A stretch of DNA of 64,000 nucleotides from Hymenobacter terrestris (GTDB lineage: Bacteria; Bacteroidota; Bacteroidia; Cytophagales; Hymenobacteraceae). A program made the translations under genes and the position numbers. The notes beneath the pieces were generated by a model, which saw only the letters and a list, made by a program, of their open reading frames with translations, did no database searches and was not told the origin of the DNA. Of the stretch, positions 34,879-40,528 are shown piece after piece. The stretch lies in NCBI RefSeq assembly GCF_013377905.1, contig NZ_JABKAV010000011.1, forward strand, positions 1-64,000, in the 5' to 3' direction. Numbering within the stretch: position 1 is the first letter of the stretch; every line of letters begins with the position of its first letter.

Positions 34879-35481
34879 ATGAAAAAACTATTAATCCCCG
34901 TTGCCGGAGCCTTTTGCCTGCTTCAGCTGTCGTCTTGCCTGAATACGGAGCGCGAAGTGGCCACCTCCCGCAACACCGACCGTCAATTTACGCCTGGCCT
35001 GGAGGCCAACCGCGGCCGGGTGAGCGAGCGTACCGTGTTACGTACGGTAAACGCCACCCATAACTTCTCCTCCACCAAGGACAAGGATTCCTTTGTGTTG
35101 CAGCTGCGCGGACCTAAAATTGCTTCGTCGCGGGCTTACTTTATCATCCTCAGCAGCACCGGCGATACGCTACGCCAGGAGGTGATGCCCGCCACCGCCC
35201 TTATCCGCGACCAGGACATGACCGATCCGCAGACGGCTACCGTACGCGACAAGGAAATTGCTATTCTGCAGGGCATGAACAGCTTTTTCCGCGACGACCG
35301 GTTTGTGCAGCCGGCCGTGCCTAAGGCGGCCGTTCAGCCCGAGAACGTGGATGCCCAGTCGTGGTCGTCGGTGAAAGCCGATAGTCGGGCCATTGGCTTC
35401 GATTACCCCTCGGCCGATGGCCGGGAGCGGCGCCTGGCATTCTCCAAGACCCTGAAACGTGCGGTAGTTATTGCCGAATAA
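34879..35481 (+). CDS. Hypothetical lipoprotein
   Basis: 200 aa. The lipobox is LQLSSC at residues 16-21. The mature part has a Ser/Thr/Asp-rich N-terminus and mixed strands (DSFVLQLRGPKIASSRAYFI), then an acidic helical middle. No conserved domain was recognised. It is a single gene in a 220-nt/236-nt spaced setting with a terminator-like hairpin 110 nt downstream. Confidence 0.65.
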   Translation: MKKLLIPVAGAFCLLQLSSCLNTEREVATSRNTDRQFTPGLEANRGRVSERTVLRTVNATHNFSSTKDKDSFVLQLRGPKIASSRAYFIILSSTGDTLRQEVMPATALIRDQDMTDPQTATVRDKEIAILQGMNSFFRDDRFVQPAVPKAAVQPENVDAQSWSSVKADSRAIGFDYPSADGRERRLAFSKTLKRAVVIAE

Positions 35482-35594
35482 GGTCGAGTCAGGCAGACAG
35501 CCTGCAGTTTCTGTTCGGACGGGTAAGTGATTGTATAAAAATTAAACTATCTGCACTGCTGCACCAGTGTCCACTGCCCTGTCAGATATACTGC

Positions 35595-35627
35595 AAAGCG
35601 CCGCCGGAGCTATTCCGGCGGCGCTTT
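35595..35627 (+). terminator. Hairpin AAAGCGCCGCCGGA / TCCGGCGGCGCTTT
   Basis: Perfect 14-bp stem with a 5-nt loop between two convergent genes, about 115 nt past the lipoprotein stop. Termination is plausible on either strand. Confidence 0.65.
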
Positions 35628-35717
35628 ACATTGCTAGCAAGGATAATGCTCTCTGCAATAATTGTTTGTTAATCAGTTGTTGCAGAAAGTACACTAAGCT
35701 GTCAACTCATCACTCTG

Positions 35718-37016
35718 CTATGGCATCGTGAAGGCTAGATCGAAGCTGACTAGGTTGGCGTTGAAATTGTTGTTGCGCTGGTAATAGGCGTAGCGCACAT
35801 CGAGCGACTTGAATTTGGCCACTTTGCGGCCGCCCTGTCCGTTGCCGAAGGGGGTTTTGAAGCGGCTGATGCCGTACACCGGCGAGTAGCGCAGCCCCAG
35901 TCCGAACTTATTGGCCGAGAAATCCGACAGGTCGTAGTCGGAGGTGTAGAACTCGCTGGCGCTGGAGTGCTGGGCGTAGGGGGCGAAGTACCTGGCCGCC
36001 GTTTGGGTGTGGTAGCGGTAGAATGGGTAAAGCACGAAGAAGGGGGTTACTTTCAGCGGCGTTTCCAGCTCAAAGGTGTGGGCCGAGATACCGAAGTTGT
36101 CGTTGTAGAAGCGGTAAAAGCCCCTTAGCTGCACAAAATCGGAGGCAAAGTAGCTTGCCCGTAACGCCACCGGGTACTTAAAGCGGCGCTGCGGCAACTG
36201 CTCTACCTTGGGGGCCACATTGCCCGGCTCGCGGAAATACACCCGGTGGAAGGACGTGCTCAGCAGCCCGCGCTGGTACACCAGCTCGGTGCTGACGGCA
36301 ATCTGCAGCCGCTGGTTGATTACCTGCGAATACACCAGCGACAAATTGTAGCTCTGGCGCTTGTCGGTGGGCACGAGTTGCTGACCAGTGCGCAGTTCGG
36401 TGGGATAGATGAGAGTGGCCTTGTCGAGATACACCTGCCCGGCAACGCTGAACTCGCGGTTGCCGTCGCGGGAGCTCTTGGCCCACGAGCCCGCTACGTT
36501 CACCGAGAAGTAGTCATATTCAGTCGATACGCCGGCTCCCAGCCCGATAGTGCGGCGCTTGGCCTTATTCTCGCGCGAGTAACCGAAATCGGCGTGCAGG
36601 CGCGTGTCGCGCGCCGAAGGGGTGGACAGGAAAAGGCCCTCCACGCCATCAATACGGTCGGTGGAGGCGGAGGCGTAAAAGTCGGCCCCGATGTTGGCCG
36701 TGAGCCGGCTGACCGTATCGAGCGGGATATTGAGGATGATGGTAGGAGTTACGTCGGTGAGGTACTCGGTGCCGCGCCCGCCCTGCACGGCCCCGTGCGT
36801 GCCGTCCTGCTGGTAGTAGCTCCCCAGGATATTGATTTCGGTTTCGCCCACCGAAGTGCCGGGCGCAGTGGGCTGGAGGCGGAGCGGCACCCCGGAGCCA
36901 TCGATGCGGTTGGGCGTAGCGCCCCCCTGGGCCCAAGCCAGGCCAGGCAGCAGTACTACGCAGGCGGCCAGAGTCATCCGACGAAAAAAAGCCACCTCAA
37001 TCCAGAATAGACACAT
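35718..37016 (-). CDS. DUF3570-family outer-membrane protein
   Basis: About 432 aa, last gene of a four-gene cluster. Signal region FFRRMTLAACVVLLPGLAWA; starts at 37034 (GTG), 37016 (ATG) or 36977 (ATG) are possible, and I chose the first ATG. The mature protein is beta-rich with repeated aromatic strands (LVYSQVINQRLQIAVSTELV, LGLRYSPVYGI) and ends SFDLAFTMP, fitting a barrel. DFYASAST at 112-119 resembles the D-x-x-[ST]-G-A-[ST] type of flavin acceptor site. That is of interest because an ApbE flavin transferase is in the same cluster. Function unknown. Confidence 0.85.
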   Translation of the reverse strand: MCLFWIEVAFFRRMTLAACVVLLPGLAWAQGGATPNRIDGSGVPLRLQPTAPGTSVGETEINILGSYYQQDGTHGAVQGGRGTEYLTDVTPTIILNIPLDTVSRLTANIGADFYASASTDRIDGVEGLFLSTPSARDTRLHADFGYSRENKAKRRTIGLGAGVSTEYDYFSVNVAGSWAKSSRDGNREFSVAGQVYLDKATLIYPTELRTGQQLVPTDKRQSYNLSLVYSQVINQRLQIAVSTELVYQRGLLSTSFHRVYFREPGNVAPKVEQLPQRRFKYPVALRASYFASDFVQLRGFYRFYNDNFGISAHTFELETPLKVTPFFVLYPFYRYHTQTAARYFAPYAQHSSASEFYTSDYDLSDFSANKFGLGLRYSPVYGISRFKTPFGNGQGGRKVAKFKSLDVRYAYYQRNNNFNANLVSFDLAFTMP

Positions 37017-37073
37017 ACAACAAGCGAAAAGCACATCTTCGAAAAACTACCCCAGCGCAGTGGGCTAAGGGCC

Positions 37074-37322
37074 TTAATTACAGCCGCAACCGCCACCCAC
37101 CTTGCCGCCGTTGGCCCCGCCGGCTCCTTCGCGGTACGACTGAAAGTTGGATTCGTAAACCTCTATCCGCTTGTTGGCGAGCTTCATATCCTCGTCGTTG
37201 AGGTATACCTTCTGATACGCGGCCACCGACACGCAGCCCCCCAGGCTACCCGCCGCCAGCAGCAAACCGGCCAGCCCAATTATCGGGCGGCGCACGCAAA
37301 TAAGAGCTGGAATATCGGGCAT
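37074..37322 (-). CDS. DUF4266-family small lipoprotein with Cys-rich C-terminus
   Basis: 82 aa from ATG 37322. The lipobox is GSLGGC (Cys30). The core AAYQKVYLNDEDMKLANKRI is the DUF4266 hallmark, and the protein ends GGKVGGGCGCN. The last residues, C-G-C-N after a glycine run, could bind metal or be modified. It sits 57 nt upstream of the DUF3570 gene and 59 nt after ApbE, all on one strand, so it is part of one operon. Confidence 0.88.
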   Translation of the reverse strand: MPDIPALICVRRPIIGLAGLLLAAGSLGGCVSVAAYQKVYLNDEDMKLANKRIEVYESNFQSYREGAGGANGGKVGGGCGCN

Positions 37323-37381
37323 GAGCAAGAAGCAGAAAGCGTGAGGGCGAAGCGCCGGAAAACGTACGGTAAATTACCCGG

Positions 37382-38425
37382 TTACGGTTGGCGGGTTGCC
37401 GGCACCGGGGCGCTGTTGCGGTAGTAGTTGATCTGCATGTTTTTGGAAACCAGCGTGCGGTTGTCGTCGGTAATCAGGGTGCAGTCGACGCCCTTGAGTT
37501 GGTTGATGAAGGCCAGGCCCTCCACGGGGCCCTTCACGAACACTACTTCATCGAGGCAGTCGGCCAGCTCCACATCGGAACAGATGATGGTGACGGAGCG
37601 CAGGCCAGTGGCGGGCAGGCCAGTGGCGGGGTTGATAATGTGGCCGTACACCCTGCCGCCCGACGTGAAGTACTGCTCGTAGTTGCCGGCCGTTACCACG
37701 GCCACATCGGTTACCTGCACCCAGCTCGAAATGCTGCCGGGGTGGTCGGGGTTGCCGATGGCCACGCGCCAGAGCGAGCCATCGGCCTGCCGGCCCCAGC
37801 ACAGAATATCGCCCGAGCCGTTGAGCAGGCCACCTTTGATGCCAAGCTTATCGAGCATCTGCCGGGCTCGCCGGATGCCGTAGCCCTGCAGCACCCCAGC
37901 CAGATTGATGCGCATGCCCTTCTCCTGGAGCATAACGGTGCGCCGGGCGGGGTCGAGCAGCACGTGGCGGTAGTTGATGCGGGCCACGGCGGCCCGGCGC
38001 ACGGCTTCGGGCGGCAGCGGGTGCTCCTGCCGGTCGAAGCGGTAAATTTTGTCGGCCGAGGCGAAGGTGATGTCAAAGGCCCCGCCGCTCAAAGCCGAAA
38101 TTCGGAGGGTACGCTCAATCAGGTCGTACACCTCCTGGTCAACTACTACCGGGTGCAGGCCGGCGGCCCGGTTGATCTGCGTGATTTGGGAAGTGGAATC
38201 CCAGAATGACATAAGCCGGTCGATGCGGCGGGTTTCAGCAATGGCGGCGTTGAGCGCAGTCCAGCCCAGCGTATCGTTGTCGGCCACCACCGTGTAGGTG
38301 AAGTGTGAGCCCATGAGTTGGGCCTGCTTGCTGAAATTGCGCAGCTGAGCGGCTGCGTTCATGGGTTGCCAAGGCAGCAACAGCGCCAGCAGCCACAAAA
38401 AACGGAGCAAGGAGGCGGCATGCAT
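37382..38425 (-). CDS. apbE: ApbE-family FAD:protein FMN transferase
   Basis: Moves FMN from FAD onto Ser/Thr of exported proteins. 347 aa with a signal peptide (residues 1-25). Family blocks: MSFWDSTSQITQINRAAG, SGGAFDITFAS, INLAGVLQGYGI, LLNGSGDILCWG and VYGHIINPATGLPATG. Some positions differ from the textbook form: INLAGVLQG where DLGGIAKG is usual, and LADCLDEVVFV where the Mg-site D-A-L-x-T is usual. The specificity may therefore be adapted to the neighbouring DUF3570/DUF4266 proteins. Part of the thioredoxin-ApbE-DUF4266-DUF3570 operon. Confidence 0.9.
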   Translation of the reverse strand: MHAASLLRFLWLLALLLPWQPMNAAAQLRNFSKQAQLMGSHFTYTVVADNDTLGWTALNAAIAETRRIDRLMSFWDSTSQITQINRAAGLHPVVVDQEVYDLIERTLRISALSGGAFDITFASADKIYRFDRQEHPLPPEAVRRAAVARINYRHVLLDPARRTVMLQEKGMRINLAGVLQGYGIRRARQMLDKLGIKGGLLNGSGDILCWGRQADGSLWRVAIGNPDHPGSISSWVQVTDVAVVTAGNYEQYFTSGGRVYGHIINPATGLPATGLRSVTIICSDVELADCLDEVVFVKGPVEGLAFINQLKGVDCTLITDDNRTLVSKNMQINYYRNSAPVPATRQP

Positions 38426-38504
38426 AGCAAATGGGATAATCGGAGCCGAAAAGAACTGATTGGTGGTGCTATTCGGGCAGCATCGACCAAGGCAAGAGGA
38501 CGCT

Positions 38505-38990
38505 CTATTTGCGGGCCAGCAGGGCGGTGAGGTGCGCTTCGTAGGCGGCCTCGCCGCCGGGCCGGTAGCCGGTTTTGGCCAATACCTTGCCTTCAGGCGA
38601 AATCAAGATTACCAGTGGAAAGGAACCCTCCTGGTTGAATTTGGAGGCGGCCAGCTCGTTTTGTTTTTGCTGCTCAGCCGACAGCTTGTTCTTCTTGCTA
38701 CGCGGGAAATCGAAGTGCGCCAGCACAAACCTGTCGCGGGCAAACTGCTCGAAGGCCGGCGTATCAAACACTTCCTGCTTCAGCATAATGCAGGGCTTGC
38801 ACCAGTCGGAGCCCGAAAAAACAGCCAGCACGGGCCGGTTGGTGGCCTTAGCCTGCTGCATGGCTGCCTCCAGGCTACTACCCCAGGCAGCAACGGGCAC
38901 GGCCGCCGCAGAAGTCGTCTGGGCAAAACCAGTTGATGCCAAGCCTGATTCAGCTGCCAGCAAAGCAGTTGCGAAAAGTAAAACGCGCAT
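38505..38990 (-). CDS. Thioredoxin-like exported protein
   Basis: About 161 aa from ATG 38990 (MRVLLFATALLAAESG). A signal peptide precedes a thioredoxin fold with active site SDWCKPC and downstream FVLAHFDFPRS and FPLVILISPEGKVLAKTGYR, the cis-Pro region. The open frame extends to 39095 but is not needed. It is the first gene of the cluster with apbE, 79 nt upstream. A disulfide reductase would fit with the Cys-Gly-Cys end of the DUF4266 partner, but this is an inference. Confidence 0.9.
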   Translation of the reverse strand: MRVLLFATALLAAESGLASTGFAQTTSAAAVPVAAWGSSLEAAMQQAKATNRPVLAVFSGSDWCKPCIMLKQEVFDTPAFEQFARDRFVLAHFDFPRSKKNKLSAEQQKQNELAASKFNQEGSFPLVILISPEGKVLAKTGYRPGGEAAYEAHLTALLARK

Positions 38991-39193
38991 AAGTAGGTAG
39001 TAGAAAGAGGTAAGATACAGCGGCCGTAGCCACATACGAAGCAACTGCTGATCTGGAGTAAAACAGGAACGCGGAACAACTTCCGAAAAAGCCACTCCGC
39101 GTTATTACTCTAATCACCGGCTCAAACCTACGGGCAACTTCATGAAGGCCGAAGGAAGAACCGGAAAAAATAGGCGCGAATTATCCCGGCCAT

Positions 39194-40528
39194 TTATCCG
39201 GCCTTAACCCAGCCGGTGCGGCCGTTGGCCTGGCGCACGAGGCGGTAGCCCCCAAACTCGCCCAGCACGGCCACGGCGGTTTGGGCCGGCAAGGCTGCTA
39301 CGGCCGGTGCGTCGGGTAGTGGGAAGGAGCGCAGCTCGGCCTCGGCCGTCAGCTTTTCACGGCGCAGCGGTACGGCAGTCCGCACAGCCGGGGCAGGTAC
39401 GAAGCCGCTGCCGCCGCCGGGTAGCTGCACCCGCAACCAGCCGGGCACGGCGCCCAGCACCAGCAGCGGGATGGTAGGCGTGGCGATATGGCCCGCCAAG
39501 CCCGCCGCGTTAGTGGCTGGTGCGGGGCGCAACGGGAGTCGTGGGGCGCGTACGCGTACGTACTGGCCCAGCTCGGCGGGCAGCTTCTTCGGCGTTGTAG
39601 CTGGCGCATCGGCCTTACGCACAAAGGGTAGCGGATCGAGGGCGCCGCTGCGGTACACGCCGAAGTGCAGGTGGGGCGGCGTAGTGCGGGCGTTGCCGGT
39701 GTTGCCCACTAGCCCCAGCGTGTCGCCCAGGCGCACGCGCTGGCCGGGCTGCACCAGCTGCTTATCGAGGTGGGCGTAATAGAGGTGGGCGTTGAAATCG
39801 GCGGTGGAAAGCCACACAACCCGGCCACCCAGCGGAGTCTCGTTTACCCGCGTAACGATGCCAGCAGCCGCGGCGACGGCAGGCGTACCGCGGGCGGCAA
39901 AAATATCGACGCCCTCGTGGCGGCGGGCCCCGCCGTCGCGCCCCGCGCCCCAGAACGAGCCGATAGCCTTATCAGACTTGCCCTGCACCGGGAAGCTCAG
40001 GGTGGGCTCGCGGCGGATGCTGAGCGTGTAGCGCCCCCCGCGCAGCAGCTCGGGCTGCACCCGCAATAGGTGCTGGCGGTCGGCCTCCACCACGTAGCGA
40101 AACGAGAGGCTGGTTGTGTCGGCGGCCATCAGGTGCCGGGGCGCGGGCTGATCGGGGCTCAGCTCGAAAGCATCGAGAAACACGCGGGGCGCGGCCGTGC
40201 CGGGAGCCAGCGTGAGGCTGACCTGGATAGCCTCACCCGCCCGCACACCGTAGCGCAGGCCCAGCGCCACGGCCCGGTCGGCCGGAAAAAAGCCCGATTC
40301 CTGGTAGGGCAGCTTCACGGTGAGCGAGTCGCGCAACGCCTGTTCGGCGGCCCGGAGCCAGTCGCGACCCAGGGCCGTTTCGGCGAGGCCCGACTGTTGC
40401 AGGCGGCGGGCGTAGGTTTCGTGGGGCGTGGTTTGCTGAAAGAGGCCGCGCAGGGTTTGGTTCTGGCTACAAGCACTCAACAACGTAATCAATAACAGAA
40501 AAGGCAGGGCGCGAAGGCGGTGCAGCAT
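39194..40528 (-). CDS. M23-family metallopeptidase lipoprotein with C-terminal SH3 domains
   Basis: About 444 aa from ATG 40528. The lipobox is LLSAC. The LytM/M23 core lies at about 205-330: HEGVDIFAARGTP (H-x3-D) and PPHLHFGVYRSG (H-x-H), with YYAHLDKQLVQPGQRVRLGD between. Two SH3-like segments follow (LGAVPGWLRVQLPGGGSGFV, VAVLGEFGGYRLVRQANGRT). It probably cuts peptidoglycan cross-links or activates amidases. An upstream open stretch to 40606 lacks a plausible start. Confidence 0.93.
   Translation of the reverse strand: MLHRLRALPFLLLITLLSACSQNQTLRGLFQQTTPHETYARRLQQSGLAETALGRDWLRAAEQALRDSLTVKLPYQESGFFPADRAVALGLRYGVRAGEAIQVSLTLAPGTAAPRVFLDAFELSPDQPAPRHLMAADTTSLSFRYVVEADRQHLLRVQPELLRGGRYTLSIRREPTLSFPVQGKSDKAIGSFWGAGRDGGARRHEGVDIFAARGTPAVAAAAGIVTRVNETPLGGRVVWLSTADFNAHLYYAHLDKQLVQPGQRVRLGDTLGLVGNTGNARTTPPHLHFGVYRSGALDPLPFVRKADAPATTPKKLPAELGQYVRVRAPRLPLRPAPATNAAGLAGHIATPTIPLLVLGAVPGWLRVQLPGGGSGFVPAPAVRTAVPLRREKLTAEAELRSFPLPDAPAVAALPAQTAVAVLGEFGGYRLVRQANGRTGWVKAG

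Follow-up and report, generated by a model that had tools for sequence, protein, structure and literature searches.

Members of the genus Hymenobacter encode an altered form of a known protein flavinylation module, in which the flavin transferase and its putative substrate have changed together. We analysed 64,000 nucleotides of Hymenobacter terrestris DNA (contig NZ_JABKAV010000011.1, positions 1 to 64,000; hereafter the window) and a four-gene cluster within it that encodes, in order, a thioredoxin-like protein (Trx), an ApbE-family transferase that moves flavin mononucleotide (FMN) from flavin adenine dinucleotide (FAD) onto proteins, a DUF4266 lipoprotein and a DUF3570 protein. With a probability of roughly 0.65, we read this cluster as the Hymenobacter version of a published flavinylation system, working as an envelope dithiol-to-flavin electron relay. 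What is new here is that the catalytic centre of ApbE and the acceptor letters of DUF3570 changed together, in one event on one branch. The known module gains three further additions: a predicted barrel in which a single hairpin carries both acceptors, a conserved lipoprotein without a predicted fold, and a recurrent Rieske neighbour.

On the minus strand, the four genes follow one another at short intervals, and all score far above the Pfam cut-offs for their families (Table 1). An initial annotation, made from the sequence alone, had described this same-strand set, and its details hold: the CKPC motif, the ApbE signal (Sec-type, judged by eye), the 82-residue lipoprotein ending GGGCGCN, and the DUF3570 segment D-F-Y-A-S-A-S-T at its residues 112–119. 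We number DUF3570 from a GTG at 37034, which gives an open reading frame (ORF) of 438 residues and numbers 6 above those counted from the ATG at 37016. The Trx ORF is likewise longer if counted from an upstream GTG, reaching 39095; against a DsbH-like model it scores 95 bits, under that model's cut-off of 190. The nearest named relative in our scan is Hymenobacter lapidiphilus, whose ApbE is 96% identical.

The module itself is published. Meheust et al. (2021, eLife; PMC8238504), the one paper that our search of open-licence literature returned for DUF4266 or DUF3570, describe clusters that combine ApbE, DUF3570 and DUF4266 with a thioredoxin-like protein; in 316 such clusters no DsbD adjoins. 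Their Chlorobium luteolum DUF3570 was flavinylated with its cognate ApbE, and flavinylation was lost only when both motif serines were replaced. They also noted the CxC tail of DUF4266, suggested that DsbD donates the electrons in some of the clusters, and left the function open, with iron hinted at by VIT1 in 25 clusters. The central idea of the initial annotation, an exported flavin/redox unit with DUF3570 as a class of ApbE substrate, was therefore already known, and its statement that the partners were not known gives way to DsbD and to the flavinylation of DUF3570 reported there.

Co-occurrence and gene order argue that the gene set is not a matter of chance. Within the genus, DUF3570 and DUF4266 each occur in 78 of 101 genomes, and comparison of the two lists by eye shows the same genomes in both. 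A phylum sample gave DUF3570 in 86 of 296 genomes and DUF4266 in 83, all 83 within the 86. Of 161 loci, 120 have the gene order seen in the window: 77 of the 80 in the genus and 43 of the 58 that belong neither to the genus nor to the Chlorobium-like family. Because some loci stop at the edge of a contig, these counts of absence are upper bounds. Chlorobium-like loci never show this order (0 of 23), and 11 of the 23 hold all four genes in another one. Co-occurrence thus extends well beyond close relatives. We looked for two outcomes named beforehand as refuting the original proposal, an unconserved acceptor segment and families that fail to co-occur, and neither occurred.

The acceptor segment of DUF3570 is invariant at its core. 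Across 133 aligned sequences, S122, A123 and S124 are identical in every row, and D-F-Y-A-S-A-S124 of the window aligns with D-S-V-S-G-A-S of Chlorobium-like proteins. From this alignment we assign S124 as the putative acceptor at motif 1. The initial annotation had likened the segment to a known acceptor type and asked whether its S118 and T119 are conserved. The first, our S124, stands; the second, our T125, does not, since the aligned residue varies among Ser, Thr and Ala in the 122 Bacteroidota rows and is Pro in most Chlorobium-like rows, and we reject it as FMN acceptor. The departure from the usual S/T-G that had been remarked upon is special to the genus only in part. Ala at the first motif position and Pro in motif 2 are peculiar to it, but Gly at motif 1 occurs in 0 of 133 rows, position 122 being always Ser. 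For that reason we do not treat the letters [ST]GA[ST], which are absent from the window protein (ASAS and STPS), as defining. A second acceptor site, S140, had gone unmentioned. Its motif, S137-T-P-S140, ends 16 residues past S124.

Comparing the genus with its relatives reveals a change at both acceptor sites. We sorted loci by the ApbE beside DUF3570, calling those with TAG genus-type and those with TSG canonical; the groups differ at these letters by definition, and at all others free of it. The comparison covers 72 genus-type and 50 canonical rows, outside the Chlorobium-like and other distant loci (143–147, 149–161 and 192–201); 11 of the 133 DUF3570 rows have no full-length ApbE and belong to neither group. 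S140 is present in every one of the 72 genus-type rows and in 49 of the 50 canonical ones (together 99%). Residue 121 is Ala in 66 of the 72 genus-type rows (Ser in 5, Thr in 1) versus Thr in 33 and Ser in 17 of the 50 canonical ones, and residue 139 is Pro in 70 of 72 versus Ala in 50 of 50 (Pro in 0). Genus-type sites therefore read ASAS and S[ST]PS. Between them, 11 of the 72 rows, the window included, carry four extra residues (132–135). We regard DUF3570 as the probable FMN acceptor in Hymenobacter.

ApbE is altered at its catalytic centre in the same loci. Published catalytic triads are D301-S257-H273 in Listeria FmnB and D285-S241-H257 in Vibrio cholerae ApbE, and the metal ligands of Escherichia coli Ftp are D280, D283 and T284 (PMC8906456, PMC12052999, PMC4767422). 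The window ApbE is related by sequence to the solved structures 7esa, 1vrm, 4xdt and others, and all five solved relatives that we compared carry TSG and the threonine ligand. In the window protein the triad is incomplete: Asp and His are kept, and Ser is Ala. TAG stands in 73 of the 74 full-length genus ApbEs at the cluster locus, the exception being locus L092, and none was seen at a cluster locus outside the genus among the loci scored. Seen by gene order, the 77 order-keeping genus loci comprise 73 with TAG, L092 with TSG, and three unscored loci with split ApbE. Among the 72 genus-type ApbEs whose DUF3570 is aligned, 55 have Glu and 17 have Asp in place of the metal-ligand Thr, versus Thr in 50 of 50 canonical ones; the Lys of KGYA has become Gln in 72 of 72 versus 6 of 50. 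TAG, LD[DE] and LQGYG are letters specific to the genus enzyme, which keeps the HI[IL][ND]P and GSGD segments along with the triad Asp and His. Two genus loci, L068 and L188, pair the altered ApbE with SSAS at both acceptor sites, and the altered enzyme is therefore compatible with normal sites.

The paired change maps to a single branch. We built an ApbE tree from 131 of the 143 loci with a scored ApbE, thinning the Chlorobium-like loci to three and masking the motif residues. All altered ApbEs form one clade of 73 (Shimodaira–Hasegawa-like approximate likelihood ratio test, 100) on a stem of 1.69 substitutions per site; the tree was made by a quick method, and the program raises a warning about meeting long branches. 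A neighbouring genus of the same family (L275–L277) is canonical on this tree. L092 (genome G024) comes from a genus member, yet both its ApbE and its DUF3570 carry the canonical letters, and its ApbE is placed with distant families rather than in the genus clade; its cluster was probably acquired horizontally.

Selection has maintained the altered genes. Ratios of nonsynonymous to synonymous substitution (dN/dS) are 0.03–0.20 for all four genes in eight close pairs, apart from one value of 0.72 (DUF4266 of L070/L190), an artefact of an over-called ORF overlapping ApbE. This purifying selection indicates that the altered ApbE is maintained rather than decaying, and a decaying pseudogene is unsupported. 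Broken genes do occur at some single loci, with DUF3570 split in L107 and L282 and ApbE split in L108, L178 and L191. Two of these clusters lie on plasmids, those of Hymenobacter sp. DG25B (L107/L309) and Hymenobacter volaticus (L191/L310).

The relay that we propose would run from the inner membrane to the outer one. Exported ApbE would move FMN from FAD onto Ser124 and Ser140 of the DUF3570 barrel. DsbD in the inner membrane, whose gene lies in another part of the genome, would reduce the CKPC thioredoxin by dithiol exchange; the thioredoxin would reduce the CGC tail of the DUF4266 lipoprotein, and the tail in turn the two flavins of the barrel. Electrons could then pass to an acceptor, at the outer membrane or beyond it, for which iron or another transition metal is our best guess. 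We infer flavinylation in Hymenobacter, each of these electron-transfer steps and their order, and the final acceptor. DUF3570 is the obvious substrate, because the window genome has one ApbE match and no FMN_bind match. Active-site conservation fits the thiol steps: WCxxC is present in 149 of 150 Trx matches and the CxC tail in 134 of 135 DUF4266 matches. The earlier suggestion that the thioredoxin keeps the CGC tail reduced is plausible.

Neighbouring genes hint at what the relay might serve. One role, compatible with the proposed relay and in our view possible though rather short of even odds, is assimilatory or detoxifying metal reduction: the outer-membrane flavins would reduce Fe(III), or Cu(II), for uptake or for handling by VIT1 and CusA/CzcA pumps. 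VIT1 occurs in 29 of 163 loci, mostly within 1 kb of the cluster, in families f1, f4, f5, f6 and f7, in keeping with the 25 published clusters that contain it (PMC8238504). In 13 of the 50 loci listed, a resistance-nodulation-division (RND) pump with an HlyD adaptor is encoded upstream in the same orientation, and the two RND proteins that we classified both belong to the CusA/CzcA family. Yet most loci have neither neighbour, the window's cluster included, the genome's sole VIT1 lies on another contig, and we identified no metal-binding site.

A third neighbour is an addition to the published module. A small Rieske [2Fe-2S] lipoprotein is encoded just upstream of Trx in 22 of 163 loci (Table 1), spread over 10 genera in families f1, f3, f4 and f7; in one of them, L179, it lies upstream of DUF4266. 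The copy in L062 is without one cluster Cys, and a Rieske protein of another kind in L201 was left out of the count. The window's cluster has no Rieske, VIT1 or RND pump gene beside it, and two relatives of the Rieske lipoprotein (L296, L297) are encoded on further contigs of its genome.

Several observations weigh against a working flavinylation relay in the genus. In FmnB, replacing R262 or H273 with alanine abolishes activity (PMC8906456, PMC12052999, PMC4767422), and the place of that Arg is Gln in the window ApbE, the 50 canonical ones having mostly Lys, with Gln in 3 and His in 1. At site 1 the first S/T of the motif is replaced by Ala, and in Klebsiella fumarate reductase, according to a review, a Gly-to-Ala or an Ala-to-Val change in the motif cut flavinylation to about 50%. 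In the text that our literature search covered, we found no report of flavinylation involving either a DUF3570 whose sites read ASAS and S[ST]PS or an ApbE carrying TAG and LD[DE]. DsbD is not beside the cluster, the sole DsbD_TM match being on contig C1 and the window on C13, and the sole VIT1 is equally remote. Being one event, the paired change makes the correlation between enzyme and motif statistically untestable. Nor is TAG alone unique to the genus. Among plasmid-borne ApbEs of other bacteria (10 readable of 11), eight read TSG, one TSS and one TAG, the last in an unrelated Latilactobacillus (L300); their metal-ligand place held Thr in eight, Asn in one, Lys in one, and Asp or Glu in none.

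Such changes could mean that the genus has lost flavinylation or put something else in its place, with ApbE acting as an FAD pyrophosphatase or another kind of transferase and DUF3570 an unmodified or otherwise modified barrel. The letters invite this reading: the triad Ser is Ala in all 73 full-length genus-type ApbEs, the ligand Thr and the KGYA Lys are replaced in 72 of 72 (Gln at the latter place also in 6 of 50 canonical enzymes), Ala at site 1 and Pro at site 2 prevail (66 and 70 of 72), and the stem branch is long. We nonetheless consider it unlikely. Ser124 and Ser140 are unchanged in 72 of 72 rows, purifying selection acts on each of the four genes, triad Asp and His persist with HI[IL][ND]P and GSGD, 77 of 80 genus loci retain the gene order, and L068 and L188 combine the altered enzyme with SSAS sites. 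FmnB S257A retains activity, at a lowered level (PMC8906456, PMC12052999, PMC4767422). The Ser-to-Ala change therefore lowers the case for an active site like that of known ApbEs, not the case for a transferase. Together with replacement of the lost Thr ligand by a carboxylate, the activity left in S257A favours a re-tooled transferase over a dead one.

The DUF4266 lipoprotein is conserved yet has no predicted fold of its own. Its mature part of about 50 residues is strongly conserved, and a model of the window protein from its second residue (81 residues) showed no fold past the signal helix at a mean predicted local distance difference test score (pLDDT) of 57, which is no demonstration of disorder in the cell. 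Conservation without a fold suggests shaping by a partner. CxC is a common soft-metal ligand pair, and the tail might instead bind a metal such as Cu(I) or Fe, or the lipoprotein might assist barrel assembly. The tail is Gly-rich and the mature part has no predicted fold, which would suit either role. We regard both as doubtful next to the redox relay, given the conserved WCxxC thioredoxin in the same cluster and the DsbD of a subset of clusters (PMC8238504). Two DUF4266 tails read CGCAK, probably those of L144 and L147, where DUF4266 and DUF3570 (motif TGAT) stand with no ApbE or Trx within 16 kb.

DUF3570 is predicted to be an outer-membrane-type beta-barrel. An AlphaFold model from a 67-sequence alignment (pLDDT 75; predicted template modelling score 0.74) forms a barrel of 16 strands by our own count, an even number of alternating strands, as in outer-membrane barrels, and polar and apolar faces alternate in most of them. 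Its best structural neighbours are outer-membrane barrels, namely BamA (Z 21.2), the polysaccharide secretin 4y25 (19.5), BcsC (18.5) and OmpG (16.5), which indicate fold class only. In the model, S124 ends one strand and S140 starts the next, with loop 125–138 at low confidence between them; both acceptors are thus predicted to sit on one hairpin, which is new here. Strand 109–124 has a polar face of R110, T112, N114, G116, D118, Y120, S122 and S124 and an apolar face of S109, L111, A113, I115, A117, F119, A121 and A123, which should turn S124 towards the lumen; the alternation gives no clear face for S140. We delimited the strands manually on the model and assigned their faces by hydropathy, with weak contrast in some strands. 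By this assignment polar-face residues are the more conserved (mean 0.72 versus 0.55), the lumen side failing to be so in 2 of 16 strands (225–238 and 289–296). Outer-membrane barrels usually have both ends in the periplasm, a topological rule that would place the acceptor hairpin at the extracellular mouth.

These predictions can be joined into a bolder proposal, which we hold to be improbable as a whole. DUF3570 and DUF4266 might form a haem-free outer-membrane electron conduit: two FMNs on the mouth hairpin, with Ser124 facing the lumen, and the CGC tail of DUF4266, whose suspected shaping by a partner is the basis of the idea, threading in from the periplasm to relay electrons from Trx. 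In Hymenobacter the re-tooled ApbE would recognise the re-tooled sites. Searches of open-licence papers returned nothing, in the text accessible to them, on a DUF3570 barrel or on a haem-free conduit.

Loci of unusual make-up accompany these regular ones. Chlorobium-like genomes (L149, L150, L152 and L153) have up to 9 DUF3570 matches each, a number in which some single genes count as two pieces; copies stand in tandem, Trx-DUF4266 pairs are repeated, and several copies are without acceptor motif 2. L179 (genome G050) reads Rieske-DUF4266-DUF3570, with Trx and ApbE missing at the locus and a second DUF4266 match elsewhere in the genome. Around the window's cluster (35400–39400), terminator-like sites are more frequent than in shuffled sequence (10 versus 3.8, standard deviation 1.8); one lies at 37070–37050 between DUF4266 and DUF3570 and another at 39103–39068, just ahead of the Trx start.

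Table 1. Features of the cluster in the window, with positions counted from its first nucleotide, and loci with a Rieske neighbour.
Feature	Position	Strand	Detail
Thioredoxin-like protein, exported, 161 aa from ATG 38990	38505-38990	-	Thioredoxin_7 53.8 bits (cut-off 27)
Trx active site CKPC (as WCKPC)	38790-38801	-	
ApbE-family FAD:protein FMN transferase, 347 aa	37382-38425	-	Pfam PF02424 246 bits (cut-off 25.6)
ApbE A246, place of the catalytic-triad Ser	37688-37690	-	alignment with solved relatives
ApbE H262, triad His kept	37640-37642	-	
ApbE D289-C-L-D292-E293, triad Asp kept, metal-ligand Thr replaced by Glu	37547-37561	-	
DUF4266 lipoprotein, 82 aa, lipobox LGGC	37074-37322	-	67 bits (cut-off 27)
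DUF4266 C-terminal CGCN (protein ends GGGCGCN)	37077-37088	-	
DUF3570 protein, 432 aa from ATG 37016	35718-37016	-	93 bits (cut-off 25)
DUF3570 putative acceptor motif 1, D118-F-Y-A-S-A-S124	36663-36683	-	alignment
DUF3570 putative acceptor motif 2, S137-T-P-S140	36615-36626	-	alignment
Loci with Rieske lipoprotein neighbour			L062, L070, L072, L111, L118, L122-L124, L130, L131, L140, L170, L172, L179, L189, L281, L282, L284, L287, L288, L291, L293

The altered module offers both a biological question and a tool. The genus holds a natural enzyme-substrate pair in which catalytic centre and acceptor motif have both changed, making the specificity rules of ApbE testable, and the pair could yield an orthogonal system for flavin tagging. 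If the barrel model is true, electrons would cross the outer membrane through covalent flavins and a dithiol tail rather than haem. To our knowledge, Bacteroidota are not known for multihaem conduits.

A known parallel to such a conduit is the MtrCAB type of porin-cytochrome complex, in which an outer-membrane barrel works with redox partners. Here too a barrel and redox partners could carry electrons across the outer membrane. The likeness ends at the carriers: none of the four window proteins contains a CxxCH haem motif, and dithiols and covalent flavins would take the place of haem if the system conducts at all.

Known flavinylation systems frame the Hymenobacter module more closely. FmnB, V. 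cholerae ApbE and E. coli Ftp (PMC8906456, PMC12052999, PMC4767422) share sequence kinship and the triad Asp and His with the window ApbE, which differs in its Ala for the triad Ser, its Glu for the ligand Thr and its FMN_bind-free genome. The flavinylated classes of a 2024 follow-up (PMC11334425) carry covalent FMN on unrelated folds at various places in the envelope, but its text does not mention DUF3570. In the strict sense of a DsbD beside ApbE and DUF3570, the window cluster is not a DsbD system, and the words barrel, porin, Rieske and RND are absent from the main text of the study that defined those systems (PMC8238504). With them the window's cluster shares the same four families, the same two DUF3570 sites, the CxC tail of DUF4266 and the DsbD-less form; what sets its genus apart is an ApbE with TAG, LD[DE] and LQGYG and acceptor sites that read ASAS and S[ST]PS.

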